Assembly: GCF_900046455.1 (NCBI RefSeq)
Contig: NZ_FCOT01000013.1
Coordinates: 992,001 to 1,056,000 of the forward strand
Direction of reading: 5' to 3'
DNA: 64,000 nucleotides
DNA from: Cellulomonas timonensis
GTDB lineage: Bacteria; Actinomycetota; Actinomycetes; Actinomycetales; Cellulomonadaceae
Numbering within the stretch: position 1 is the first letter of the stretch; every line of letters starts with the position of its first letter. Under the pieces are notes generated by a model. The model did not search any database. It was not told the origin of the DNA and saw only the letters and a program-made list of their open reading frames with translations. The translations under genes were made by a program, and so were the position numbers. Below are positions 25,761 to 41,000 of this stretch, in pieces.

Positions 25761-26597
25761 TCAGGGACGACGACCGGACGTGTGCTCCAGGAGCCGGTCC
25801 ACGAGCACCGGCCAGGCCCGGCGGGGTGGGACGCCGTGGCCGGCATCCGGCACGACGAGCAGGCTGGCGCCCGGGATCTCGGCAGCCAGGGCGCGGGCGT
25901 GCGGGAGGGGGAACACCGGGTCGTCGGCGCCGTGGACGACGAGGGTCGGCACGTCGATCCCGCCGAGCCGATCCCGCCAGCCCGGGCCGCCGTCCACGAC
26001 GTAGTGGTTCGTGCGCGCCCGCAGGTCCGTCGACCGCGCGACAGCGCGCTCGGCGACGGCCCGCTGCACGTCGACCTCGAAGCCACCGCGCAGATAGGCC
26101 CGCTCGGATTCCACGAGGTACGCGACGGCCTCAGCTGGATCAGACCAGTCGGGCTCGGGGGGCGCGGACGAGAACGCCGCCTGATCTGGCCCCGGGAGGT
26201 CGCCGGCCTCGCGGCCCGGGGCGCCCGGCGTGCAGCTCATGAGCGTCAGCGTCAGCACCCGCTCGGGATGCCAGAGTGCGGCCAGTTGCGCCGCGGCACC
26301 GCCCATCGACAGCCCGACGAGGTGCGCGCTGGCCACACCCTCGGCGTCGAGGACGCCGAACAGGTCCGCGGCGAGATCAGGCAGGCCGTAGCCCGGCCGG
26401 CCCAACGGCCAGGTGGTGGACCGCCCGGTGTCCCGCCAGTCGAAGCGGATCACCCGCCGATCCTGCGCGAGCCAGTCGACCAGCTCATCCGGCCACGCGT
26501 CGAGCGAGCACGCGGCGCCGTGCGCGAGCAACAGGACGGGCGCGTCGGGCGGCCCCGAGGCATCGACGCACAACGACGCCCCGCTGACGTCGACCAT
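25761..26597 (-). CDS. Alpha/beta hydrolase
   Basis: 278 residues from ATG 26597. Oxyanion region 'LLLAHGAACSLDAW', nucleophile elbow 'LVGLSMGGAAAQLAAL' (Ser), acid 'VVHGADDPVFPL' (Asp) and 'VPDAGHGVPP' (His) form a complete triad. 'VIRFDWRDTGRSTTW' is common in the carboxylesterase/haloperoxidase-like group. The substrate is open. It lies 70 bp downstream of the GNAT gene on the same strand and may share its transcript. Confidence 0.9.
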   Translation of the reverse strand: MVDVSGASLCVDASGPPDAPVLLLAHGAACSLDAWPDELVDWLAQDRRVIRFDWRDTGRSTTWPLGRPGYGLPDLAADLFGVLDAEGVASAHLVGLSMGGAAAQLAALWHPERVLTLTLMSCTPGAPGREAGDLPGPDQAAFSSAPPEPDWSDPAEAVAYLVESERAYLRGGFEVDVQRAVAERAVARSTDLRARTNHYVVDGGPGWRDRLGGIDVPTLVVHGADDPVFPLPHARALAAEIPGASLLVVPDAGHGVPPRRAWPVLVDRLLEHTSGRRP

Positions 26598-26667
26598 CCG
26601 CTCGGCACGGCTCACTGCGCCAGGCTGGCGCCCGTCGACGTCACCCGCGAACGGGCTGCGCCGCGCG

Positions 26668-27090
26668 TCACGGCCGGAGCCGCACGAGCCCGGCGCTCGT
26701 CGGAGCGAACCCGCACGCGTCGAGGTAGAACTCCCGCAGCTCCTCGTCGAAGTCGACATGCAGCCACTCGCACCCCGCCGCTGCGGCGTGGTCGCGCGCC
26801 ACCTCGACCAACCCGGCGCCAATCCCCTGCCGTCGCGCGCGCAACGCCACCGAGGTGTCCACGACGAACGCGTGGGCCAGCCCGTCCCACAAGACGTTGA
26901 CGAAGCCCACGAGCCCCGCGTCGTCGCGGGCGGCGACCCAGCCCAGGCTCAGGCGCGCGACCCGGTCGTTCCAGTCGTCGTCGACGGGCTGGTGGCCGAA
27001 CGCCTCGGCGTGCAGGGCGTTGACCTCCTCGTTCGAGAAGGGCTCACGCCACCCGTAGGCGACCGGTGCTGCGACAGGCTGGCTGGTCAT
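26668..27090 (-). CDS. GNAT N-acetyltransferase
   Basis: 140 residues from ATG 27090. Acetyl-CoA loop 'ARRQGIGAGLVEVARDHA' (R/Q-x-x-G-x-G/A), preceded by 'LAHAFVVDTSVALRA' (beta-4) and followed by 'CEWLHVDFDEELREFYLDACGF', the GNAT C-terminal motif. The acceptor is unknown. An upstream extension to 27549 is antisense to the cupin gene and is rejected. Confidence 0.9.
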   Translation of the reverse strand: MTSQPVAAPVAYGWREPFSNEEVNALHAEAFGHQPVDDDWNDRVARLSLGWVAARDDAGLVGFVNVLWDGLAHAFVVDTSVALRARRQGIGAGLVEVARDHAAAAGCEWLHVDFDEELREFYLDACGFAPTSAGLVRLRP

Positions 27091-27264
27091 GGCGCCACTC
27101 TGCCGCGCACGACGACCCTGGTCGCGGGAATTGTCGACGGCAGCCCAGCGACCAGCCCCGAGGCGCCGCCTGATCGAGCCGGGCGCCGTCCAGGATGGCG
27201 CGGGGCTCCACGATGACGGGCAGCGGCGTAGCGTCGAATGATCACTCGATCGAGGAGGGTTCTG

Positions 27265-27633
27265 ATGGCTGGAGTGGAGTCGAAGAGCTTCGACGCGCCT
27301 GACGACGTTCGACCATTCACGGGCAATGGCCAGGCGCAGGTCGTGGAGCTGGCTGGCAACACGGTGGTCAAGGCGACGTTCGAACCCGGCTGGCGGTGGT
27401 CGGAGAACGTCCGCCCGATCGCGGGCACGGACAGCTGCCAGTCGCCGCACTTCTTCTACGTGATCTCTGGGCGGCTGAAGGTGGTGATGGACGACGGCGC
27501 CGAGGTGGAGGCCGCGCCCAACGACATCGTGCGCGTCGAGCCGGGTCACGACGCCTGGGTGGTCGGTGACGAGCCATGCGTCTCCGTCGACTTCGGGGCG
27601 TCTCCCGCCTACGCCCGCAGGAGCGACGCCTGA
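27265..27633 (+). CDS. Small cupin-domain protein
   Basis: 122 residues from ATG 27265, with GAGGAGG 6-8 bases upstream. One cupin barrel: 'TFEPGWRWSENVRP' and 'PHFFYVISGRLKVVMDDGAEVE' in part (motif 1), then 'NDIVRVEPGHDAWVVGDEPCV' in part (motif 2). One metal-binding His remains in each motif ('SPHFF', 'PGHDAW'). Likely a small-molecule binding or isomerase-type protein; the substrate is unknown. It is the last clearly core gene before the accessory island. Confidence 0.85.
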   Translation: MAGVESKSFDAPDDVRPFTGNGQAQVVELAGNTVVKATFEPGWRWSENVRPIAGTDSCQSPHFFYVISGRLKVVMDDGAEVEAAPNDIVRVEPGHDAWVVGDEPCVSVDFGASPAYARRSDA

Positions 27634-27900
27634 GCGCTGCCCCAGCTGTTGGGGGGAGCGGACGCTAGCCGCGTCGCACAGGTGAGCGTCCGCCGAATGG
27701 GACGCGAGTCACGACGCGGCAGTTCGCGGAGGCGCCAACGACGGCACCAAACGCGGCACAGGCTTGAGCAGTCGAGGCGTGCCAGGTGCTCCTGCCGGCG
27801 GATGCCACGGCCCGCCGTACGACTCCAAGGCGCAGGCGGTGCTCACCATCGGCGGCACACTGAAACTGCATCTCGCGATTCCCGATCGGCAACGCGCGGA
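27634..27900. other. Gene-free stretch with two hairpins at the island's left side
   Basis: No convincing gene. Directly after the cupin stop is CGCT-G-CCCC…GGGGGG-AGCG (27634-27660), a likely terminator, and then GCGGACGCT…AGCGTCCGC (27658-27666 and 27685-27693), a perfect 9-bp inverted repeat. No copy of the tRNA-Leu 3' end was found here, so this is not proven to be an attachment site. Confidence 0.45.
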
Positions 27901-28917
27901 TCACGCGCCCTGCGCCGGGACTAGGTCCGCCAGGCCCTCGGGCAGCATCAATGCCACTGACCCAACGACCGGCAGCGGCGACGAGTCTGCGAAGCCGACC
28001 CCAACCCGCAATTGCCTTCCGTCGGGCCCGCCGTCGACTCGCTCGAGCAGAGCATCGTTCAGCATCAGGCTCGCTACCTCGCGAGCGATGTACTGGCCGC
28101 CCTTGCGCCGGAACACGAGCGGCTCACCGATCACGAGCGGCCCTGCCTTCGCGTCAAGGCCAATATGCCCGGACCATCGCTGAGCAACCGTCCCGACTAC
28201 GATGGCAGCCCCCGAACGTTCGCACTCAGCAAGCAGGCGAGCGTTGGCCGCCTCTTCCACGATGCCGAGGTATGCCTCGACGACATTGACCAGCGCAACA
28301 ATTTGATCGACTGCCAGGATGTCATCCGGCACTGCGTAGGCATGCGCTAACTCGTTACGTCGCTCCACGAGGTCGAGGAGGGCAGACTCCATCGAGGATT
28401 TTCCAAGTACGTCAAGATCCGAACTTGCGATCGGAGTATCCGGACTATCAACCGAGACGTCCAGGCGAAGGAGCATTTCGTGAACCAGCGGATGCCGATA
28501 ATTGGCTTGGGACCGCGTGAATACTTGCGGCACCAGCTTGCGAAGCGCGGGCGCCGTCGAGGAGCTTAGCGAGTCAAGAACTGTCGCCTCATCGATCGGC
28601 ACCCGCAAACGGGCGCGATCGCCGTCGATAACCGCCTGGAGCGCGAGTCTCCGGAATTCGAGCCGGACCCTGTCCGGTAAATCATCATAGGATGCATGAA
28701 TTTGCCCGTAGGCTTCGGCGGTGCGCATGATAATGCGGTCGACCGATTGCTCAAGCAGTCCGTAGCACTGCACAACTCCTGAGACATACGCCGTTCTACG
28801 AATGCGGCTCAAAGCCGAACGGTCAGGCCCGCCATCGGAAATGTCGCCCTGGAGTCGCTTCATGTCTCCGCGTAGCGTCTCGGAATCTGACGATATGGAC
28901 GAAAGCAGTTCTCTCAT
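27901..28917 (-). CDS. MAE_28990/MAE_18760-like HEPN protein
   Basis: 338 residues. The HEPN catalytic motif R-N-x-x-x-H is clear at residues 187-192 ('ERRNELAHAYAV'). Before it is a long helical part with 'YVSGVVQCYGLLEQSVDRIIM' split over helix 1 and 'LEFRRLALQAVIDGD'; after it 'VDQIVALVNVVEAYLGIVEEA' supplies the second HEPN helix pair. The last 100 residues ('RWSGHIGLDAKAGPLVIGEPL…') form a beta-rich tail. HEPN domains with this motif are usually metal-independent ribonucleases used in defence and toxin systems. Its ATG overlaps the DUF262 stop by 4 bases. AT-rich relative to the chromosome, suggesting transfer. Confidence 0.8.
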   Translation of the reverse strand: MRELLSSISSDSETLRGDMKRLQGDISDGGPDRSALSRIRRTAYVSGVVQCYGLLEQSVDRIIMRTAEAYGQIHASYDDLPDRVRLEFRRLALQAVIDGDRARLRVPIDEATVLDSLSSSTAPALRKLVPQVFTRSQANYRHPLVHEMLLRLDVSVDSPDTPIASSDLDVLGKSSMESALLDLVERRNELAHAYAVPDDILAVDQIVALVNVVEAYLGIVEEAANARLLAECERSGAAIVVGTVAQRWSGHIGLDAKAGPLVIGEPLVFRRKGGQYIAREVASLMLNDALLERVDGGPDGRQLRVGVGFADSSPLPVVGSVALMLPEGLADLVPAQGA

Positions 28918-30131
28918 TTGGCGGACGTGGCAATTACGTCGTCAAGTAGTGACAGGATAAGTTCGTCGCGCCGCAGAAAGTCCTTGGGGTCAGTCTTTCG
29001 CCCGTCGAAGTCCGCCGCATGCTCGTCGTACAGATGTTCGAGCCTGTCTAGAACCATTTGCTTGCGATCGATCAGGGTCGCGGCGCCGTCCAGTCGCTGG
29101 CTGAAGGCGGACATAACAGAGTCGTAGGCCAACAGAGTAGGGCGGGGAACCCAGCCGCGGCTGCCCCCGCGTTCACGCCGGATGTAGAAAGCCCTCTCAT
29201 CCAGAACGGCGAAAACGAGCCTGATCGTCGCCGTGAACACTCGCCCGATTGCTTCAATGGTGCCGGCGGACAGCTGCTCATTTGCGGCTGACCAGTATTG
29301 ATCCAAAAATGCCTTCAGTCTCCGTGGCGCACCCTCAAGTCCTCGTTGCCGGTGGGCGAAGAACCGGAGAACCATTTCAACATCGTCCATGCTCTGGACC
29401 CGTGGATCACTGAGCACCTCGTCGCGGTCGAGGTCGTCCACTCCCTCGATCGGCTCCGGGATGCCCCATGCGCGGCAGAATTCGGGGGTGCGCGCAAGTC
29501 GCGGAAGCCCCGCATTCAGAGGGCCCGAGCTTAGAGCATTCCTCGATTCCTGCGCACTTAGGGAGACCCCGCCACTGTTGATGCGCTCGAAAACCAACTC
29601 TTTCAGGTGTTGGGCGACCGCGCTGTCGTTCGCCGTCTCGTATAACAGCACAATGCTCGAAATATGGCGCCGATCAATGGCTTGACGCAACTGTAACGGG
29701 AGCGTTGAGTAGCGCCGGCCGTTTAGTTCGGGCCAGAATTCTAGTTCGACGAGGTCGAACTTGTCCTGGTAGAAATCCCAGAGGGCGGTGAGTCGCTGAA
29801 GGCCGTCCATTACTTCGTACTTTGAGTACTCGTACTCGTAGACGAAGATCGGCGGGACCGGGACGTTCATGATAAAAGATTCGATCAGCCGTGACTTTTT
29901 GGCCACGTTCCAGCGATGTCGACGCTGGTACTCGGGTTGCAGTTTATATCGGCCGCTTGCGAGGACGAGTGGGAGCTCGGCGAGTTGTGTTCGGGCCTGG
30001 TCCGTGACGATCCGAACCTCGCCGCGCACATAGCGATCGACGATTTGAGACTCCGACATCTGCTGCTGCGACGCGTCCGTCGGTTGATTGAGCGTAATCG
30101 CTTCTTCGGGAAGCAGGTCAGACACCGGCAC
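28914..30131 (-). CDS. DUF262 (GmrSD N-terminal/ParB-like) protein
   Basis: 405 residues from GTG 30131 (AGGTGG five bases upstream; GTG 30182 is the alternative). It has the DUF262 signatures 'LQPEYQRRHRWNVAKKSRLIES' in part, 'FIMNVPVPPIFVYE' and 'YEVMDGLQRLTALWDFY' (D-G-x-Q-R-L-T), a ParB/Srx-type nucleotide-using fold found in GmrSD type IV restriction enzymes. 'LVFERINSGGVSLSAQESRNAL' in part follows, then a helical C-terminus without the HNH (DUF1524) nuclease domain. The HEPN gene overlapping its end may therefore supply the nuclease activity. Inference: an NTP-dependent sensor plus RNase pair acting against phage. Confidence 0.83.
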   Translation of the reverse strand: MPVSDLLPEEAITLNQPTDASQQQMSESQIVDRYVRGEVRIVTDQARTQLAELPLVLASGRYKLQPEYQRRHRWNVAKKSRLIESFIMNVPVPPIFVYEYEYSKYEVMDGLQRLTALWDFYQDKFDLVELEFWPELNGRRYSTLPLQLRQAIDRRHISSIVLLYETANDSAVAQHLKELVFERINSGGVSLSAQESRNALSSGPLNAGLPRLARTPEFCRAWGIPEPIEGVDDLDRDEVLSDPRVQSMDDVEMVLRFFAHRQRGLEGAPRRLKAFLDQYWSAANEQLSAGTIEAIGRVFTATIRLVFAVLDERAFYIRRERGGSRGWVPRPTLLAYDSVMSAFSQRLDGAATLIDRKQMVLDRLEHLYDEHAADFDGRKTDPKDFLRRDELILSLLDDVIATSAK

Positions 30132-30496
30132 GGCTACCACCTTTGGCTGGCTACGGCACTCGTGCACCGCCAGGAGGTGCACGCCTACACCGTATCGGTC
30201 GCGTATCGCCTCCCGAGGGGACCGACACCGATCGACGAGTCAGCTGGCGCGGATACGGTGCGTGGCGACGGCCAGCACGCCCGGCGGGGACCTGCAGTGG
30301 GCCTCAGGGAGCCTCTTGCGACAGGGCATGCATCGAAGATTGCGGCCTCGGACAAGGCGAAGCAGCGCATGGCCCCACCCCACGTGCAGGGTGCAGTGTG
30401 CTTCACGCGGAGTCCGGGGCGGTAGTTTCTAGCGCATGGCCGATCTGATTACCCGCCGAGCTTCCTTCGCGTCGTCTCGGTTCGGCGCGTGAGTCG
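30132..30496. promoter_or_regulatory. Divergent control region between the DUF262 operon and the nuclease-LRV gene
   Basis: 365 bases without a believable gene; the open frames here have no conserved look or ribosome site. Both divergent units must be started from here. No strong -10/-35 pair or inverted repeat could be picked with confidence. Confidence 0.4.
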
Positions 30497-33400
30497 ATGA
30501 GCCTCACCGACCACCTGAGCGACTCGCATTCCCCGGTTCGCGCGTTCGTCGATGGGCTCTCACCGATCTTCACCGGCGTGCCAGGCACCTCGAAGGCGAC
30601 GCAGGCGATGGTGCGGGCGCTCGGCCTCCAGACGCTCGTGCTGAGCAGGTCAGTAGTTCCTCCGCCGCCTGGAGCCGTGGCGGCACTCGTCGGCACCGCC
30701 ATCGACTTTCGCACCCGCATCGCTCTTAGTGACTTCAGTCCTCATCACTCCGTCGCGGCTTTGGGCGTTGCCCGAGTTGCCGGTCATGAAAGCCAGATCA
30801 AGAACGGCACGCACCGGGTGCGGGTACTGACCGAAGCGTTCGAAGTCGCGAACGGGATAATTGAGAGCGCTTCGGAAGAGATCGAGCTTGACCGTGCTGC
30901 GCTTCTGCTGGCCTACTGCGAACAGGCCTACCGAGGCGGTCACGCGGCGCTGGGCGGCTCACTCGGAGACGACCTGGACCGCGTCGATGACGGGCACGCA
31001 TTCGCGCTGCGGGTGGGCGCGCGCTCGCTCGGCGACCTCCGCTCGCTCATGGAAGCCAACGAGACCCAGATCAACCAGTGGCGCGGGCAGATCGCTCAGG
31101 GCGAGAGGTTCGAACCTAATCCGGTCTTCGCTGGTTCTGCGCTTGTCGGAGGCGCTGACGGCGACTGGATGGTTGGTAGAACTCTGTTCGACTCCAAGGC
31201 GTACGGGAAGCTCTCCTACCCAGCACTGCGTGGCTTCCTTCGCCAGCTGCTCGGCTACGTGATGCTCGACCTCGATGACGCGCTCGGAATCCGCAGCGTG
31301 GCTGTCTGGCTTCCCCGGCAAGGTATGACGAAGTCGTGGCCACTTCACCTTCTCCTCGGTGGCGACCCCGAAGAGTTGTTGCCGATGCTGCGCGTTGAGT
31401 TCCAGATTGCCGCAGATGGAAGGCGGTTGGCCGTTAGGGAGCCGGTGACCCAGCGCCGAAAGCACCAGCTCCTCGCCGACAACGCGAACACCCCGCGAGA
31501 GATGCTCTCGGCCCTGGCACTGTGCGAGGACATCGACCTCCGATTCCGTGTCGCGCGCAACGCTGCGACTCCGGAGCTGACCGTGAGAGACCTCGCGCGT
31601 GACCGTTATGCCAGAGTCCGGGAGGGGGCGGCACGGAACCCGCAGGCACCGCCAGACCTGCTCGAGGTGCTATCACGCGACACCAGCCTCATGGTGCGGA
31701 GGGCAGCTCACGCGAACCCGCGCACACCGAGAACCAGCCCGAGAGCGCTGGAATCCGGTCGGCGCCCGCGGTCGGCGCCCGACGCGCCAGCGATCGAGCA
31801 GGCTCGTATGGCCCCCGGCGGCGTGCGCCCCGGCGCATCGCTGGCTGGACACGGCCGCGACGACTTGTCGGTGGACGCCGCATGGTTCACTGCGTTTCTC
31901 GCTGCCACTCGCGGCGGCACACCAACCGGTCCGGGACCGTGGCTCCCCCTGCCTGCCGCTAGCCATCGCTGGGCGGCGATAACCGGGCGGGAGCTCGACA
32001 TCCCTTGTTGGCTGAAGTCTGGTCTACCGCACGAGGTCAAAGAGGACCTCCTGCGCCAGGGGCGCCCCGCATGGATGCGACGCGCCGTGGCCGCCGACCT
32101 GTCTGTCGCGGACGCCGGGGTGCGCAATCGGTTGCTGTCCGATCTCGACCCCGAGATCCGTTGGTCAGCGCTACGCCGCACCGCGGACGCACCGGACGAC
32201 AGCCTCGGCGATCTGCTCGCGAGACTCGCGTCTGACCGGGCAGAGCGCACCCACTTCCGGAAGGCCGGCGACGATCAGCCACGAGGAGCGGGCCTCCGCA
32301 GCCCCGGTGAGCTCGACACGGAGATGCTGGAACTCGTGGCCGCGCACCCGTCCACGCCGGTCACGGCACTCCGCGAGCTCATGGGCACCAAAGTGCCGCG
32401 TGTTCTGGTCGCCCTGGCCGGGAACCCCTCGCTCCCGGCTGCCAACCTCGATGCGCTCCTGCCTCGGTTGCGCTCGATGCGATCCACCGAGAGTCGCGTG
32501 CAACTCGCGGCTTCGACACTAATCCCCGCAGCCGTCGCGGGGGCGCTCATCGAAGACCGCGATGTCGGGGTGCGCGCCTCGCTATCACGGAACCCCGAGG
32601 TTCCCACGCAGGTCCTGGCACGCCTGGCACTGGATGCCGAGATGTCCGTCCGCCTTGGTGTGCTCGCGAACCCGAGCACACCGCCCGATCTCGCCAGCCG
32701 CATCGCACGACCGCTGCTGCTGTCGACGACCGATGAGACGCTTCTCGGTGTCCTCGCTGCGACTCGCCAGCGCAACGACCTCGCGCAGCCCGAGGGCCTG
32801 GTCGAGCAGGCGCTCGACAAGCTCGCCAGCAACCGTCTAGCCCACCCGAACCTGCGCCAGATCGCCGCTGGCGATAGCCGCACCGCGCCCCGAACGCTGG
32901 TGCGCCTCGCCCGAAGCGTCGACGCGTCCGTCCGCCGGGAGGTCGCCGAGAACCCCCGCACGCCGCCCGGAACGCTTGCAGCCCTCGCGGGAGACCCTGA
33001 GCCACAGGTCCGCGCGGCAGCGGGCAGAAGCCGGACCCTTGACCTCGATCGGCTCCAGACTCTGAGCCGCGATGAGGAGGCGGACGTTCGCGAGAGTGCC
33101 GCGGGCAACCCGGGACTTGACGGTGCCCGGCTCGCTGAGATGCTCCTCGACCAGCATGGGGCCGTGAGGTCTGCCGCATTCAAGAACCTTGTCACGAGCG
33201 CCGAGGACAGGGCCCGCGCCAAGACCGAGTGGGACAAGCGCTGGCGGGACGCTGCTCCCAGCAGAGCAGACCTGGAGGAGAGAGCCGCGAACGCGCTCGC
33301 GCAGGTGCGGGTACAGGTGGCGCGCGACCCACGGACCCCGCCCGACATACTCGTCTTCCTAGCCGGCGAACGCCGCAGTGCCTTGGTCCGTCGAGCCGTC

Positions 33401-33703
33401 GCCGCGAACTCGAACACGCCACCGGAGGCTCTCGCATCTCTCTCTCAGGACGCCGACATCGAGGTGCGACGAGCAGTCGCGTTCAACAGCGCGACCTCGC
33501 CGGCGACCCTCATCGAGCTCGCTGACCGCAGCGTCGATCTTGCTGTTCTCGTCACGCTCAACCCGGACGCCCCGCCCGCGATCATCGAAGCGCTCGTCAA
33601 CGACAGCGATCAGCTCGTGCACTTCATCGCAGACCAGGTCCGCGCCCACCGCTCGCTGCCGCGGGGAAGTTCGAGCGCCACCACTCCAGAACTCGACGTC
33701 TAG
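30497..33703 (+). CDS. PD-(D/E)XK nuclease-like domain fused to long LRV-type repeats
   Basis: 1068 residues from ATG 30497. Residues 1-300 end in a segment that fits a PD-(D/E)XK core: 'DGDWMVGRTLFDSKAYGKL' (D223; D232-S-K234), then 'LRQLLGYVMLDLDDALGI' with the Gln/Tyr helix, 'SVAVWLPRQG' as the last strand and 'KSWPLHLLL'. From about 320 to 1050 come many repeats of leucine-rich-variant type, about 24 residues each, with the pattern V-R-x-x-V/A-A-x-N-P-x-T-P-P-x-x-L-x-x-L-A-x-D, for instance 'VRREVAENPRTPPGTLAALA'. A non-repeat insert (about 410-530) breaks the array. Such solenoids bind protein or nucleic acid. Neither membrane segment nor signal is seen. Function is undescribed as far as can be told; a sensor-nuclease defence role is inferred from neighbours. 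Confidence 0.75.
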   Translation: MSLTDHLSDSHSPVRAFVDGLSPIFTGVPGTSKATQAMVRALGLQTLVLSRSVVPPPPGAVAALVGTAIDFRTRIALSDFSPHHSVAALGVARVAGHESQIKNGTHRVRVLTEAFEVANGIIESASEEIELDRAALLLAYCEQAYRGGHAALGGSLGDDLDRVDDGHAFALRVGARSLGDLRSLMEANETQINQWRGQIAQGERFEPNPVFAGSALVGGADGDWMVGRTLFDSKAYGKLSYPALRGFLRQLLGYVMLDLDDALGIRSVAVWLPRQGMTKSWPLHLLLGGDPEELLPMLRVEFQIAADGRRLAVREPVTQRRKHQLLADNANTPREMLSALALCEDIDLRFRVARNAATPELTVRDLARDRYARVREGAARNPQAPPDLLEVLSRDTSLMVRRAAHANPRTPRTSPRALESGRRPRSAPDAPAIEQARMAPGGVRPGASLAGHGRDDLSVDAAWFTAFLAATRGGTPTGPGPWLPLPAASHRWAAITGRELDIPCWLKSGLPHEVKEDLLRQGRPAWMRRAVAADLSVADAGVRNRLLSDLDPEIRWSALRRTADAPDDSLGDLLARLASDRAERTHFRKAGDDQPRGAGLRSPGELDTEMLELVAAHPSTPVTALRELMGTKVPRVLVALAGNPSLPAANLDALLPRLRSMRSTESRVQLAASTLIPAAVAGALIEDRDVGVRASLSRNPEVPTQVLARLALDAEMSVRLGVLANPSTPPDLASRIARPLLLSTTDETLLGVLAATRQRNDLAQPEGLVEQALDKLASNRLAHPNLRQIAAGDSRTAPRTLVRLARSVDASVRREVAENPRTPPGTLAALAGDPEPQVRAAAGRSRTLDLDRLQTLSRDEEADVRESAAGNPGLDGARLAEMLLDQHGAVRSAAFKNLVTSAEDRARAKTEWDKRWRDAAPSRADLEERAANALAQVRVQVARDPRTPPDILVFLAGERRSALVRRAVAANSNTPPEALASLSQDADIEVRRAVAFNSATSPATLIELADRSVDLAVLVTLNPDAPPAIIEALVNDSDQLVHFIADQVRAHRSLPRGSSSATTPELDV

Positions 33704-34037
33704 ATCAGGCTTCTGCCCTGCTCGCTCTGACGTGACCAGTTCCGCGAGTGCGCGTTGACGTCCGGTTCCGCGCCGATCCGCGTCTGGTTACCACTAGCAC
33801 TTCTCCGGCCAGAGCCTCGCGGATGGGGCGTGCGCGGCGCGGCGCACACACACGCCCTGCAGCAGCGCGCGCCCATCGGGCGTATCGCGAGCGGTGGCCG
33901 CACGGCTGCCGTGGGGACCCGCGCGGGCGGAAGCGCACGGGTTCGCGGCGCTCGCGGGCAGGGCGCCGTGGCGGTGCGGCGCGGAGGGTGGTAGGTCAAT
34001 CCACCCTGCCAGCGATTACTCGCCCTACCGTGAGGTC
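33704..34037. other. Gene-free stretch
   Basis: No gene supported. The GC-rich 33820-33990 part has open frames on both strands but no ribosome sites or known motifs. AGGGTGG…CCACCCT (about 33984-34007) is a possible hairpin just before the DUF5677 gene. Confidence 0.4.
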
Positions 34038-34883
34038 ATGGCGGACATCGAGCTTCAGAGCGCTCTGCGGTCACTCATCGCTGACTGGAACTCGGCGACG
34101 ACGACGGGCTCCATCGGGATGGGCCGACGCGATCACATGCTCATCGGGTTGACGGTCTATGGGCTGACCGCGCAGGTGTACCACCTCGCTGAGGCCGCAC
34201 TCGTTCTCGACGAACATGGCCTGGACCAGGCTGCGATCCCCCTAGTGCGCCAGGCCATCGAGTGTGCGATCACAGCGGTCTGGCTCGAACGCAGCGGCTA
34301 CCCAGAGGTGCTCTCCCTGATTCGGGAACAGACCCGGCAGCAGCGGAACGCGATCGAGGAGTTCGTCAAGGTTGGCGCGAAGTTCGATGACCCGACGGCG
34401 CAGCAACGGGTGGCCGCGGAACTCGACGGTCTGTTGCGCACTCAGACACCAGCCGGTGAGAAGTTCGCTGCCCGATGCGATGAGCTCGCCGGTGCCAATG
34501 CCTACTACGCGCTCTACCGCGTCGCCTCGAGTACCAGCCACGCCAGCACAGCAGTAGTCGATCGGTACCTCGAGGGCGCTCACCTCGACGAGGACGCACC
34601 GGCGGGGATCGCGTTGCTGGGTCGGCCTGAAGTGGCCGAGGACGAGACTCTCGGGGGGGTGAGCAACATGCTCGACATGGGGGTCTTGGCTACGAGCGCG
34701 TGGAGCCGTATAGACAAGCGGCACACTGCGCGGACCGCGATGAAGCACCTATGCCGAGTGTTGGAGATCCCGTACCGGATGGAACTCACCGCCCACGGCC
34801 TCGCCCAGCAGCGCGAACGGGAGATCGAGTACAAGGTGTGGTCCCAAGAGCAGCGTTCCAAGGCCGCAGGGGCGGCAGACTGA
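34038..34883 (+). CDS. DUF5677-like protein
   Basis: 281 residues from ATG 34038. All-helical: 'GRRDHMLIGLTVYGLTAQVYHLAEAALVL' split over helix 1, 'AAIPLVRQAIECAITAVWLERSG', and the recognisable 'ANAYYALYRVASSTSHASTAVV', which matches the conserved Y-x-x-Y-R-x-x-S-x-x-x-H helix of DUF5677. These proteins often sit beside defence or restriction genes; their activity is unknown. It may be a third component of the island or an independent cargo gene. The coding start upstream (33894) is not supported. Confidence 0.65.
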   Translation: MADIELQSALRSLIADWNSATTTGSIGMGRRDHMLIGLTVYGLTAQVYHLAEAALVLDEHGLDQAAIPLVRQAIECAITAVWLERSGYPEVLSLIREQTRQQRNAIEEFVKVGAKFDDPTAQQRVAAELDGLLRTQTPAGEKFAARCDELAGANAYYALYRVASSTSHASTAVVDRYLEGAHLDEDAPAGIALLGRPEVAEDETLGGVSNMLDMGVLATSAWSRIDKRHTARTAMKHLCRVLEIPYRMELTAHGLAQQREREIEYKVWSQEQRSKAAGAAD

Positions 34884-35549
34884 CGGCACCGCTGCAGAAC
34901 CCTCCAAATGGGTGACTCTGACCTGCACATTCGCGTTTGGCGCCCGCGTTGCCCCGATTTCTGACGTAGTTATGCGCGCACAACTGTCCGATTCTTCCCC
35001 CGCCGTTGTGACATGTCACACCGTGGCACCGATCCCCACGAGCGAACAGCCGCTCTTGCTCGAGCAGGATCGCTCCCCCGATCGCGTCGTAGACTGTTCC
35101 TGTTCGCGGGGTCTGCTGATCCCGCTTAAGACTGTTGAGACAGCAGGTACGGCGCCTCCGGTATGGACCCGGGGGCGTTCGTGCGTCCAGAACCGCGTGC
35201 GCCCGCCCTGACCACGCCGTGCACGTTGGATCACCCCGCTTCACCCGCGCTTGACGTCGATCTACCGGGTTTGCGCTATCTGACCGTGAACTCGTACGAC
35301 CACCCCGACGTGTTCGCTGCGGCCTCGGACGAGGCGACGCAAGGGCCTCACGTGACCTACATGTTCGACACGCTCTGGGACAACGCCATGGGCTCGAGCG
35401 GGTGGCAGCCCACGGCCTCACAGCCAGACCCGTCAGCACCTATCCAGATGAGATCACCGGCACTTGGGACGTTGGCTTCGGCCATGCGGTGGACGCCGAG
35501 CAGAGCCGGCCGGTTGTGACGCGTGTTGTGACATGGGCAAAGAAGAGGA
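34884..35549. other. Long gene-free stretch beside tRNA-Leu
   Basis: About 670 bases. The best frame is a plus-strand one at 35163-35519 (118 residues, 'LDVDLPGLRYLTVNSYDHP…YMFDTLWDN'), with no ribosome site and no family recognised; it may be a decayed gene. No integrase remnant and no duplicate of the tRNA end was seen. Confidence 0.4.
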
Positions 35550-35582
35550 CCCCCTGACCCGGTGTTTTCCCAGGTCAGGGGG
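35550..35582 (-). terminator. Terminator of the tRNA-Leu gene
   Basis: A 10-bp stem (CCCCCTGACC and complement) with a 13-base loop, 11 bases after the mature tRNA 3' end. On the minus strand it is followed by TCCTCTTCTTTG, an intrinsic-terminator-like tail. Confidence 0.8.
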
Positions 35583-35593
35583 CCACAATGTTG

Positions 35594-35676
35594 TGTCCGG
35601 AGGGGGACTTGAACCCCCACGCCCTTTCGGGCACTAGCACCTCAAGCTAGCGCGTCTGCCATTCCGCCACCCGGAC
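35594..35676 (-). tRNA. tRNA-Leu (anticodon GAG)
   Basis: An 83-base class II tRNA. Acceptor GTCCGGG pairs with CTCCGGAC (one G-U); anticodon stem CTAGC/GCTAG carries the loop TTGAGGT with anticodon GAG; variable arm GTGCCCGAAAGGGCGT is long as in tRNA-Leu; T arm GGGGG-TTCAAGT-CCCCC. The discriminator is A and no CCA is encoded. It reads CUC/CUU codons. The accessory island lies on its 3' side. Confidence 0.95.
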
Positions 35677-35854
35677 AGGTGGACCGTCAGAACCCCTCGC
35701 GGGCTCCCTCAGGTGCGGCAGAAACATAGCATGGCGAGCCGGTCGAGCATGAATCGCGGCTGCGGGGCAGACTGTCCTGGGACAGCATCACCGCAGCGTA
35801 CGGGGCTAGATCACCCGATCTCGGAGTGATCCCCGCCACATCGGAGGAGGGCTG

Positions 35855-37084
35855 ATGGCGGATCAGGGCGCATCGGGCGAACGGGCCTCGGCCTCGCCCC
35901 GGCACCCTGTGGGCGTGACGTCCTCGACGCGGCGCCTCGCGGGCTCCCGCCGCGCCTCCCCCGTCGCCATCCCGGAGCCCACGGCCCCGCGCTGGCTGAT
36001 GAACCTGGCCGGGGTCTCCTGGCGCCTCCTGGTGGTGACGGCGGCCATCGCCCTGGTCTTCTACGCCACGTCCCGCGTGCAGCTGCTGTTCATCTCCCTG
36101 TTCCTGGCCCTGGTGTTCACGGCGGTGCTGCGACCGGCGGTGGAGCTGTTCGCCCGGGTGATGCCGCGTCCGCTGGCCACGGCCCTCGCACTGCTGGGCG
36201 GGGTGCTGATCCTGCTGGGAATGCTCACGTACGTGGGGGTGTCGGTCGCGGGCCAGTGGTCCAAGCTGTCCGACCAATTCGCCAGCGGCATCCAGGACAT
36301 CATCGACTTCCTCGAGGACGGCTCGCCGTTCCGGATCACCACCGACCAGATCAACCAGTGGATCGAGAACGGCCGCACGTGGGTGGAGGAGCACGCCAGC
36401 GAGCTCGCCTCCGAGGCCGCAGCGGGCGCGGGCAGCGTGGTGGAGGTCCTGACGGCGCTCGCGCTGGCGACGTTCTGCGCGGTGTTCTTCCTCACCAGCG
36501 GGCGGTCGATGTGGGAGTGGTTCCTGGCGCAGCTCCCCCTGAGCGCGCGGAGGTCGTGGAGCATCGCGGGCGCCGCCGGGTGGTACACGTTCTCCGGCTA
36601 CACGCGCGGCATCCTGATCATCGCGTTCTCCGACGGCCTGCTGGCGTTCATCCTGCTGTCGATCATCGGGGTGCCACTTGCGGCGCCCCTGGCGGTGCTG
36701 GTGCTGATCGGCGCGTTCATCCCGCTCGTGGGCGCCCCCGCGGCGATGGTCATCGCGATGATCGTGGCGCTGGCGGCGAACGGGCCGGTGCAGGCGGCGA
36801 TCGTCGGCATCGGGATCGCGCTGATCGGCCAGTTCGAGGGGCATGTGCTGCAGCCGCTGGTGATGGGCAAGCAAGTCGCGCTGCACCCCGTCGTCATCGC
36901 CGTGGTGGTGCTGGGCGGCACGTTGACGGCCGGCATCCTGGGCGCGGTCATCGCGGTGCCGCTGGTGGCGGTCGCGTGGACGGTGTTCTCCCGGCTACGG
37001 GAGCCCGAGCCGGAGCTGGAGCCCGGGGACGTGCGCGAGCCGTATGAGGCCTACGAGGGCACTGAAGTTGACGAAGAGCGCTGA
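35855..37084 (+). CDS. AI-2E family transporter
   Basis: 409 residues from ATG 35855, with GGAGGAGG four bases upstream. A 45-residue hydrophilic start, then seven to eight membrane helices: 'LLFISLFLALVFTAVLRP', 'ALALLGGVLILLGM', the soluble loop with 'DQFASGIQDIIDFLEDG', 'VVEVLTALALATFCAVFF', 'YTRGILIIAFSDGLLAFIL', 'AVLVLIGAFIPLVGAPAAM' and 'GQFEGHVLQPLVMGK', the last being diagnostic of the YdiK/PerM/TqsA (UPF0118) family. The cargo is unknown. The stop region carries a tandem duplication of about 18 bp (TTGACGAAGAGCGCTGAG twice, about 37068-37105) that duplicates the stop codon context. Confidence 0.92.
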   Translation: MADQGASGERASASPRHPVGVTSSTRRLAGSRRASPVAIPEPTAPRWLMNLAGVSWRLLVVTAAIALVFYATSRVQLLFISLFLALVFTAVLRPAVELFARVMPRPLATALALLGGVLILLGMLTYVGVSVAGQWSKLSDQFASGIQDIIDFLEDGSPFRITTDQINQWIENGRTWVEEHASELASEAAAGAGSVVEVLTALALATFCAVFFLTSGRSMWEWFLAQLPLSARRSWSIAGAAGWYTFSGYTRGILIIAFSDGLLAFILLSIIGVPLAAPLAVLVLIGAFIPLVGAPAAMVIAMIVALAANGPVQAAIVGIGIALIGQFEGHVLQPLVMGKQVALHPVVIAVVVLGGTLTAGILGAVIAVPLVAVAWTVFSRLREPEPELEPGDVREPYEAYEGTEVDEER

Positions 37085-37132
37085 GCTTGACGAAGAGCGC
37101 TGAGGCAGACGAGGCGTAGGGCCTCTCGACCG

Positions 37133-38026
37133 CTAGGCGGGGTCGTGGAGGCCCGCGAGCGCCCGGTCGATCTCTCGGAGCACGCCCGGCCCGGGTCGCC
37201 GCAGCGGGGCCGGCAGCGGGCCCACCGCCACGCCGAGCGCCTCTCCCACGGCGTGCACGACGCGCGCGCCGCCGGTCGCGGCAAGGTCGGCGAGCGGCTG
37301 GAGCCCAGCCATCAGGGCGAGGGCGCGCTCGGCGTGTCCGGCGGCGGCCATGTCGGCGACCTCGGCGTAGCGGGCCGGCAGCACGCCCGCGAGCCCGGAG
37401 TGCCAGGTGCGGGCGCCGCCGAGCAGGCCGTGCACGCCCAGGCCGTCGCCGCTGAAGCCGATCTCGACGTCGGCGGGGAGCTTGTGATGCAGCTCCCGGG
37501 CCCGGCCGCGCACCGCATCCGGGCTGGTCCCGCGGTCCTTGACGCCCTGGACGCCGGGCAGCCGGGTCACGCGCCGCAGCTGCTCGACGCTGAAGTCGTA
37601 CCGGGTGGCGACGGGGTTGTGGTACGCCCACACCGGGATGCCGACCACCTGGGTCACACACCGGTACAGCTCATGCACCTCGTCGTCGGTGAGCGGCAGG
37701 TACGCCATCGTCGGCACGAGCAGCGCGTCGGCCCCCGCCTGCTCGGCGTCGCGCGCAAGGTCGAGGACGTCGCGGGTGGTCAGGGCGCCGACGCCGACCA
37801 GCACCGGGACGCGCCCGGCCGCGGCCTCCACGGCCGCCTCGCACACCCGCCGCCGCTGGGCCCGGTCCAGGTACGCGAAGCCGCCCGTGCTGCCGAGCAC
37901 CGCGACACCGCTGGCGCCGCCGGCCACAGCCCGGTCGACGAGCTGGGCGAGCACACCCTCGGCGACCTCCTCCGTGACGGTGCGCGGGGTGGGGAGGTAC
38001 GCGACCAGCGAGCCGAAGAGGGGCAT
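37133..38026 (-). CDS. DapA-family aldolase (dihydrodipicolinate synthase/N-acetylneuraminate lyase type)
   Basis: 297 residues. TIM-barrel class I aldolase: 'VAVLGSTGGFAYLDRAQRR' (G-S-T-G-G instead of G-T-T-G-E), 'VPVLVGVGALTTRDVLDLARDAEQAGADALL' in part, the Tyr in 'VWAYHNPVATRY' and Schiff-base Lys in 'VQGVKDRGTSPDAV'. The altered phosphate/keto loop argues against a true DapA in lysine synthesis and for another 2-keto acid aldolase or hydratase. Convergent with the transporter gene. Confidence 0.85.
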   Translation of the reverse strand: MPLFGSLVAYLPTPRTVTEEVAEGVLAQLVDRAVAGGASGVAVLGSTGGFAYLDRAQRRRVCEAAVEAAAGRVPVLVGVGALTTRDVLDLARDAEQAGADALLVPTMAYLPLTDDEVHELYRCVTQVVGIPVWAYHNPVATRYDFSVEQLRRVTRLPGVQGVKDRGTSPDAVRGRARELHHKLPADVEIGFSGDGLGVHGLLGGARTWHSGLAGVLPARYAEVADMAAAGHAERALALMAGLQPLADLAATGGARVVHAVGEALGVAVGPLPAPLRRPGPGVLREIDRALAGLHDPA

Positions 38027-38070
38027 CTAGGCAGCGTAGCCACCGGGTCCGGCTCGGGTGTGGCTGCCTG

Positions 38071-41000
38071 TCAACGGAAGTCGCGCGACGTGGTCCGCAC
38101 CCGCAGCGACAGCGGGGCCAGGTGCTCGGCGATGAGGTTCGTGGCGCCGTCGGCCCGTTCCAGCCGGCCGCGCACCACCAGCGCGGCCGACGTGCGGGCC
38201 GCCTTACGGAACTTCTGCCAGAGCCCCGGCGAGCAGACCACGTTGAGCAGGCCCGTCTCGTCCTCGAGCGACAGGAACGTGACCCCGCCGGCTGTCCCCG
38301 GACGCTGCCGGTGCGTCACGACCCCCGCCACCGCGACGCGCCTGCCGGCCTCGTGGCGGTAGGCCTGCTCGACGCGCAGCACACCCGCGGCGTCGAGGCC
38401 CTCGCGCACATGCTGCGTGGGGTAGGAGTCCACCGAGACGCCGGTGGCCCACACGTCGGCCACCGCCAGCTCGACGTCCGTCATGCCGGGCAGCGTCGGG
38501 GCGCTGACGCCCACCGCGACGCCGGGCAGCGTGTCGGGCCCCTCCAGGGCGAGGGCTCCAGCCGCCCACAGCGCCTCCCGTCGGGTGGCCCCCAACGCGC
38601 CCAGGGCGCCGCCGGTGGCGAGCGCCTCGAGCTGCGCGGTGGTCAGGCTCACCCGGCGGGCCAGATCGCGCAGGTCCGCGTACGGCCCATGCGCGGCGCG
38701 CTCGGCGACCACGCGCTCGGCGACGTCCTCCCCCACGCCCCGCACCGAGGCGAGCCCCATCCGCACCGCGAGCGCCCGGCCGTTCTCGGCTGTCGCGTGC
38801 TCGTCCACCGGGGCCGTCCCCGAGGGCGTCGGCACGAGGCGCGGCTCACCGCCCGGTGGCGTCGGGCCCAGCCGCTCCACCTGTGCCTGCACGCCCGAGG
38901 CCTGCACGCACGGGCGCAGCACCTGCAGGCCGTGACGACGGGCGTCGGCGACAAGGGACTGCGGGGAGTAGAAGCCCATCGGCTGCGCGGCCAGCAGCCC
39001 GGCGTAGAACGCGGCCGGGTGGTGCACCTTGAGCCAGGCGCTGGCGTACACGAGGAACGCGAACGAGTACGCGTGGGACTCGGGGAACCCGAAGTCGGCG
39101 AAGGCCTTGAGCTTGTCGAAGATCTGCTCGCCGGTCTCCCGGTCGATGCCGTTCGCGGCCATCCCGGCGAGCAGGCGGGCGTGCAGGGCCTCCATCCGCT
39201 CGGTGGACCGCTTGGAGCCCATCGCCCGGCGCAGCTGGTCGGCCTCGGCGGGGGTGAAGTCCGCGACGTCGATGGCCATCTGCATGAGCTGCTCCTGGAA
39301 GAGCGGCACCCCGAGGGTCTTCGCGAGCGACTTCTCGAGCTTGGGGTGCAGGTAGGTGACCTTCTCCCGGCCGTGGTACCGGTTGATGTACGGGTGCACC
39401 GAGCCGCCCTGGATGGGCCCGGGGCGGATGAGCGCGACCTCCACGACGATGTCGTAGAACCGGCGCGGCTGCAGGCGCGGCAACGTGCCCATCTGGGCGC
39501 GCGACTCCACCTGGAACACGCCCACCGTGTCGGCGGCGCTGAGCAGGTCGTACACGAGCGGGTCCTCGTACGGCAGGGCGTGCAGGTCGAGCTCGACGCC
39601 CTCGTGCTCGCGCACCAGGTCGAACGCGATCCGCAGGGCGGTGAGCATGCCCAGGCCCAGCAGGTCGAACTTCACCAGCCCCGCGTCGGCGCAGTCCTCC
39701 TTGTCCCACTGCAGCACGGTGCGCCCCGGCATCCGGGCCCACTCCACCGGGCAGACTTCGATGACGGGCCTGTCGCACATCACCATGCCGCCCGAGTGGA
39801 TGCCCAGGTGGCGGGGCAGGCGCAGGAACCGCTCCGCCAGGTCGATCACCTGCTCGGGGATCTCGTCGAGCTCGGACGCCGCCGGGGGGCGGGTGCGCGG
39901 GACCACGTCGTGCCGGTCGGCGGAGGGCTCGAACGTCGTCCCCCACACCGCGTCATGCGGGTCGCGGCCCCGACCGGTCCGGGCGGGCGGCGCGTCACGC
40001 GCGGGCGCGGCGTCGCGGCCGTCGGGCGTCACCGGGTCGGCGCCGCGCAGGCTGCCCCAGCGCTCAATGGACTTGCTCCACGCGTCCTGCTGCCCGGCGT
40101 CGTAGCCGAGCGCGCGCGCCGCGTCGCGCACCGCCGAGCGCGGCCGGTAGGTGATGACGTTCGCGACCTGCGCGGCGTGCGTGCGCCCATGCGTGGCGTA
40201 GACGTACTGGATGACCTCCTCGCGGCGGCCCGACTCGATGTCCACGTCGATGTCCGGCGGGCCGTCCCGCTCGGGCGCCAGGAAGCGCTCGAACAGCAGC
40301 CCGTGGGCCACCGCGTCCACCGCCGTGACCCGCAGCACGTAGCAGACCGCGGAGTTGGCGGCCGAGCCGCGGCCCTGCGCCATGATGCCGTTGCGGCGGC
40401 AGAAGTCGACCAGGTCGTAGACGACCAGGAAGTACCCCGGGAAGCCCAGGTCCTCGATGACGCGCAGCTCGTGCTCGAGCTGCGCGTACGCCCCGGGCAC
40501 CCGCTCGGCCTCCGGCGGCCCGTACAGCTCCAGGGCGCCGCGGCGCACCAGCTCGCGCAGCCAGCTCGCCTCCGTGTGGCCGGGCGGCACGGGGTAGGGC
40601 GGCAGTTGAGGGGCGACCAGCGCGAGGTCAAACGCGCACTCGGCGGCCAGGCGCGCGGCGGTGGCCACGGCCTGCGGGGGGCGCCGGTGCAGGGCCAGCA
40701 TCTCCGCCGCCGAGCGCAGGTGGGCGGTGGGAGCGCCGGGCAGCCACCCGTCGAGGTCGTCGAGCGAGGATCGGGCGCGCACGGCCGCGAGCGCCGCCGC
40801 GAGGTCGGCGTCCCGAGGTGTGGCGTAGTGGACGTTGCCGGTGGCGACGAGCGGCAGGCCGGCGGCGGCCGCGAGCGCCGCGAGGGCGTCGTTGCGCTCG
40901 GCGTCGCTGTGGTCGCCGTGGTCGGTGACCTCGACGGCGACGTTCTCGTGGCCGAACAGCCCGACGAGCCGGTCGAGCTCGGCGCGGGCGGCGAGGAACC

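Follow-up and report, generated by a model that had tools for sequence, protein, structure and literature searches.

The window analysed here, a stretch of 64,000 nucleotides of Cellulomonas timonensis (contig NZ_FCOT01000013.1, positions 992,001 to 1,056,000), carries at positions 30497–33703 of the forward strand a gene for a large protein, in which a predicted nuclease domain is fused to a solenoid of LRV repeats. The gene is a single uninterrupted open reading frame (ORF) of 1068 amino acids (aa) beginning with ATG; it is real, intact and not a product of chance, and the choice of its start is supported by the N-terminal pattern MSLTxxL...S(P)VR, which is kept in relatives as far off as Haloarcula. 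Pfam recognised in the product LRV (PF01816, E 2.3e-24), LRV_2 (PF25591, E 9.1e-21) and HEAT (E 3.9e-6), the first 320 residues remained without any Pfam match, and NCBIfam gave no match. An earlier note, based only on the letters of this DNA, had described the product as an undescribed nuclease-like protein with a giant LRV solenoid, and the residues it cited (D223, D232-S-K234 and RQLLGY with Q250 and Y254) were all found where it had placed them.

The N-terminal domain comprises residues 1–310 (30497–31426, forward strand, as are all parts of the gene given below) and was modelled by AF2 with high confidence (predicted local distance difference test, pLDDT, 91.8; predicted template modelling score, pTM, 0.89) as a helical cap (1–200) followed by an alpha-beta core (201–306). 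The order of elements in the core is helix 175–200, strands 224–226 and 229–233, helix 241–257 and strands 267–272 and 277–282. Its best structural neighbours according to VIA-align were MGME1 (Z 8.4), AddAB (8.3), Dna2 (7.4) and the Cas4-like ACE1 (7.2), with AdnAB, RecE and Cas4 likewise among the top rows, and in the viral structures of BFVD most named matches were either large helicases or nucleases of the RecB, Cas4 or Exo8 kind. At the level of sequence, a PDB search gave no match (best E 0.21, an unrelated ribosomal protein), and neither did tblastn of phage genomes. Residues of this domain were compared in an alignment of 46 relatives from Actinomycetota, Planctomycetota, Chloroflexota, Acidobacteriota, Pseudomonadota, Bacteroidota, Elusimicrobiota, Bacillota and others, where D180, P209, A220, D221, D223, L230, K234, Q250, Y254 and R274 (31316–31318) are invariant. 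The predicted active site, D221, D223, D232-x-K234 and Q250-xxx-Y254 (31157–31258), varies there only at residue 232, which is D in 38 domains and E in 8. It is preceded by a motif I-like element G66-T-A-x-D70-x-R72-x-R74 (30692–30718), with G66 and R74 each kept in 45 of the 46 domains, R72 in 43 and D70 in 40, three more having E. The resulting pattern, GxxD...(D/E)xK...QxxxY, is the signature of RecB/Cas4-type nucleases, and by modelled fold and motifs the domain is assigned to this type within the PD-(D/E)XK superfamily. Thus, the PD-(D/E)XK core suggested previously is borne out both by the nuclease fold of the predicted structure and by the steadiness of its D and K residues among homologues, to which D221 adds an invariant first Asp that had not been named; what does not hold is the likeness to a generic restriction enzyme, because G66xxxD70, GxxD221, D232xK234 and Q250xxxY254 indicate the RecB/Cas4-like exonuclease type.

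The rest of the protein is clearly periodic. N-P/A/S-x-T/V/A-P motifs occur 10 times, compared with a mean of 0.28 and a maximum of 4 in 2000 shuffles, and follow each other in exact 26-residue steps (329, 355, 381 and 407; 699 and 725; 971 and 997); self-identity has a peak at lag 26 alone (0.172 vs 0.091 expected), and PF01816 scores 84.5 bits in six stretches against a curated cut-off of 21.6. No tandem array was found in the repeat region at the DNA level, so the repeats must be old. The proximal LRV block of 26-residue repeats occupies residues 318–410 (31448–31726), with helix pairs at 318–407 in the full-length model, and is followed by a linker (411–455; 31727–31861) with low confidence or disorder at 414–452 and by the main LRV/HEAT-like alpha-solenoid (456–1052; 31862–33652), modelled with pLDDT of about 90 over most of its length. 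Altogether the solenoid has about twenty helical repeats, those between residues 456 and 600 being less canonical in the full-length model. Foldseek related it to PP2A PR65-type and other HEAT solenoids (E 4e-8). The approximately 700 residues of N-P-x-T-P-P repeats noticed earlier do therefore form an LRV solenoid, of about 730 residues (318–1052), which is not continuous, being broken by the disordered linker and the less canonical repeats behind it.

The same fusion was then found in relatives. A genome-wide scan for the N-terminal domain gave 80 loci, and the LRV form was present in at least 17 genomes, all of Micrococcales. Fifteen of these proteins are full-length (1040–1090 aa), 41–54% identical to the window protein and align with it end to end. 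Two copies are broken: that of Cryobacterium (L020:582-3820) is split into two overlapping ORFs with a change of frame near residue 499, and that of locus L027 is truncated. In the tree of N-terminal domains all 17 LRV-fused domains belong to one clade (Shimodaira–Hasegawa-like approximate likelihood ratio test, SH-aLRT, 100), its sister being solo nucleases of Microbacteriaceae with tails devoid of LRV (L033 and L037), and judging by this tree the LRV fusion is of single origin. More distant relatives registered by tblastn on plasmids are solo proteins or C-terminal parts of UvrD helicases, and the UvrD fusions branch apart from the LRV clade. A protein of Latescibacteria (L064:6557-7549), where a related nuclease domain is followed by TPR repeats, is a second and separate nuclease-solenoid fusion. 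By sequence, then, the nuclease domain is joined to at least three different modules, LRV, TPR and UvrD. A match in genome G470 was dropped as a false relative, since it proved to be a TPR/BTAD regulator.

Ratios of nonsynonymous to synonymous substitution rates (dN/dS) across the whole fusion gene were 0.18–0.29 in all six pairs compared, which means that the gene is under purifying selection; no positive selection was seen in the solenoid, the middle of which had dN/dS of 0.16–0.34. Among the fusion proteins the nuclease core (mean pairwise identity 67%) is best conserved along with both ends of the solenoid (59% for the proximal block and 57% for the distal end), the middle of the main solenoid follows with 40–42%, and the linker diverges fastest (25%). 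Fusion genes of Leucobacter and Microbacterium (L029 and L031) are mosaic, with synonymous divergence (dS) of about 0.11 in their LRV parts and about 1.3 in their nuclease domains, and this inequality points to intragenic recombination between genera. The gene is rare and patchy: among 396 sampled genomes of the order the LRV form was registered in 2 and relatives lacking LRV in 3 others.

Some plasmid-borne relatives have neighbours of their own. In both Streptomyces plasmids L002 (3283-6570) and L007 (2153-5627) a "DCL family protein" precedes the UvrD-nuclease fusion, and the two may form a two-gene system. In a Pseudonocardia plasmid (L003:1883-6633) a solo relative follows two ORFs of cytosine (C5)-methyltransferases with an IS1380 transposase between them, and a restriction-modification locus is possible there.

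Comparison with known systems showed that the nuclease family is already covered by models of PADLOC. RTasPDDEXK (PDLC03797; DRT-associated PD-(D/E)XK) represents the common nuclease family and matches all 46 relatives, at best with E 9.8e-19; its match to the window protein is weak (E 0.012), and its 226-position model leaves the LRV solenoid outside. PDC-S61 matches 23 of the 46 relatives (best E 5.7e-11) and does not match the window protein up to E 1. It is a single-gene defence candidate that likewise lies in defence islands (PMC11514479), though the one gene located in the literature spans just 753 bp, compared with 1068 codons in the window. Cas4a2 gave a weak match in three members of the family. 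The protein is therefore not wholly "undescribed", given that both RTasPDDEXK and PDC-S61 match its relatives. The LRV fusion did not turn up in the literature that was searched, most subscription journals being outside it, and nothing relevant there relates LRV to phage defence or to a nuclease.

With exonucleases of the RecB/Cas4/MGME1/AddAB type the window domain has in common the strand order of the core, a motif I of G-x3-D/H appearance, GxxD, D/ExK and QxxxY, but unlike them it has no cysteines for an Fe-S cluster, possesses its own helical cap and belongs to no Pfam family; in motif I it has D where this family usually has H. The LRV protein of Azotobacter, which represents the Pfam LRV proteins, shares the 26-residue repeats and bears a 4Fe-4S module at its N-terminus, whereas the window protein has a nuclease there and no Fe-S match in Pfam. 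UvrD-nuclease fusions of Streptomyces plasmids share the nuclease domain (27–46% identity), which is placed C-terminally on an SF1 helicase in the absence of LRV. Avs proteins likewise combine an N-terminal nuclease with a large C-terminal alpha-solenoid, but they contain a nucleoside triphosphatase (NTPase) of the STAND/NACHT type and their solenoid is TPR-like, whereas that of the window protein consists of LRV repeats. Since the window protein matched no NTPase family in Pfam, NCBIfam and PADLOC with the limit set at E 1, it is not an Avs, and of the Avs-like logic proposed earlier only the nuclease-plus-solenoid plan is retained.

The gene is located on a genomic island of approximately 7.96 kb (27636–35592), which has a lower G+C content, lies beside tRNA-Leu(gag) (35593–35676, reverse strand) and has no counterpart in the nearest relative of the same genus, G006. 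Window segments 35593–38847 and 25776–27635 map there to adjoining DNA with 86 bp between them, and in genome G005, too, little distance separates the aligned flanks, the left one being alignable just in part. On the right the island ends at the 3' end of the tRNA gene; no integrase or attachment-site repeats were recognised. Divergently from the fusion gene and outside it lies a gene for a DUF262/GmrSD_N protein (28914–30182, reverse strand; PADLOC NsnA 4.8e-56, PD-T4-2_A 4.4e-28), which overlaps by 4 bases with the gene of a HEPN-like protein (27901–28917, reverse strand; RiboL-PSP-HEPN just under the Pfam cut-off). These two likely form a two-gene defence pair of their own. Directly downstream of the fusion gene the island contains a gene for a DUF5677 protein (33894–34883, forward strand), and it also has an ORF of 217 aa that gave no profile matches. 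No reverse transcriptase was found among the island proteins scanned (DUF262, HEPN, DUF5677 and the 217-aa ORF, some small ORFs being outside the scan), and no methyltransferase was recognised in the island.

The fusion gene associates with defence islands in other genomes as well. At a threshold of 1e-10, 217 PADLOC models were matched among 93 proteins flanking LRV loci and 8, with mostly generic matches, among 93 proteins from control regions of related genomes. Neighbours that were checked include Gabija GajB (L019), NsnA/DUF262 (L022), a type II methyltransferase (L023), the type IV enzyme mREase_IV (L024), a type III methyltransferase (L029) and PDC-S06 (L031), and Pfam recognised NaeI. 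No single gene is kept around 15 other LRV loci, and this lack of a conserved partner is consistent with a one-gene system. DUF262-HEPN was considered as an obligate partner and rejected, because DUF262 adjoins only 1 of 16 other LRV loci (36% identity) and the second gene there is unrelated, with no clear HEPN homologue; the pair and the island noted previously are real, but the pair is not a conserved partner. Near the start of the fusion gene in Microbacterium suaedae there is an ORF of 298 aa (L014:7017-7913), the end of which overlaps this start and the C-terminus of which looks nuclease-like (VWAYKA...LLRLLVHYLMG...GIFNPR); as a partner it was rejected, since it was not found at the other LRV loci. 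A motif scan for reverse transcriptases beside solo relatives gave just unrelated or out-of-frame ORFs. In Microbacterium the PDC-S06 gene (L031:13302-14960) lies near the nuclease-LRV gene, and in Streptococcus thermophilus ST55 (ORFs 0741 and 0744) PDC-S06 is found near a PDC-S61 gene (PMC11514479, Table 3), so that a recurrent pairing of PDC-S06 with this nuclease family is possible.

Based on these data we consider it rather probable that the fusion is a single-gene anti-phage protein, composed of a nuclease effector and a solenoid serving as its regulator or recognition part, on a small tRNA-borne defence island. The RecB/Cas4-like nuclease (1–310) would be the effector and the LRV/HEAT-like solenoid the part responsible for recognition and regulation, which at rest may keep the nuclease inactive or unassembled. 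An infection-specific ligand would bind to the solenoid, and the resulting change in its shape or assembly may free or oligomerise the nuclease, which would then degrade DNA of the phage and possibly of the host using Mg2+ held by D221, D223, D232 and K234. Net charge of the solenoid is negative in 14 of the 15 full-length proteins, which makes a protein ligand more likely than DNA and general DNA binding less likely. Conservation of the core and the solenoid ends combined with divergence of the solenoid middle and the linker is as expected if recognition takes place in the middle. We infer the role in defence from the defence-gene context, and within this scheme we also infer catalytic activity, DNA as the substrate, autoinhibition, the sensor role, the class of ligand and the outcome for the cell. 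A stricter version, put forward here only tentatively, is a one-protein pattern-recognition receptor, in which the LRV solenoid would directly sense a conserved phage protein and switch on the RecB-like exonuclease with neither NTPase nor second messenger, the nuclease having been recruited separately to LRV, TPR and UvrD.

Several observations weigh against the defence protein we favour. None of the Z-scores from VIA-align is more than modest (the highest is 8.4), though nearly all top rows come from one superfamily, and Foldseek of the N-terminal domain against PDB was not significant (E >0.1). Profile comparison with PDDEXK_1 by hhalign brought into register D232-x-K234 and, with equal spacing, Q250-xxx-Y254 (QLGAY in PDDEXK_1), yet the alignment has little statistical strength (p 0.039), and 3 out of 60 shuffles of its columns did equally well. 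Redundancy among the PADLOC models raises the number of those matched, and other species supplied the control regions. PDC-S61 of S. thermophilus is a listed candidate and was not among the genes cloned and tested (PMC11514479). The window protein's own solenoid is slightly basic (+5), and relaxed constraint is another possible cause of the quicker divergence in the middle of the solenoid.

The main rival to a sensor is an adaptor: the solenoid would anchor the RecB-like exonuclease to DNA ends or to a DNA-processing machine of the host for constitutive trimming of invading or broken DNA, and the UvrD fusions would be the helicase-nuclease version of this arrangement. Fusion of related domains to UvrD in Streptomyces and other actinobacteria agrees with this, as does the helicase association of the best structural neighbours (AddAB, AdnAB, Dna2). 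However, no helicase is conserved beside the LRV form, the LRV clade has solo proteins as its nearest kin, the UvrD fusions lying elsewhere in the tree, and an acidic solenoid speaks against general DNA binding, so that we regard the adaptor as unlikely. The acidity of most solenoids is also at odds with restriction dependent on modification or sequence, where the nuclease would cut modified or unmodified invading DNA and the solenoid would provide DNA specificity. Restriction-modification genes do adjoin some LRV loci (L023, L024 and L029), and the solo relative of the Pseudonocardia plasmid follows its two C5-methyltransferase ORFs, but a methyltransferase is neither a conserved neighbour of the LRV form nor recognised in the island of the window, and this explanation seems improbable to us. 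Even fainter is the chance that the gene is a cargo or maintenance function of a mobile island, active in competition between plasmids or islands rather than against phages: resolvase genes occur near three LRV loci and several relatives are plasmid-borne, yet the neighbours are mainly anti-phage systems, not replication or transfer genes, and the island of the window has no recognised integrase.

Immune proteins built of a nuclease and a solenoid have so far mostly coupled sensing to killing through an NTPase. The fusion is probably a one-protein immune system of a design not previously described, the nuclease family itself being already a PADLOC candidate. A conserved single-chain version devoid of NTPase, if true, would represent a simpler way of gating a toxic nuclease. 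For the PADLOC candidates PDC-S61 and RTasPDDEXK an architecture and a predicted active site are now available, and LRV repeats, for which the search of the literature brought up no immune role, would gain a function that can be tested. Since one and the same nuclease domain exists solo and with UvrD, TPR or LRV, modules of its activation become directly comparable.

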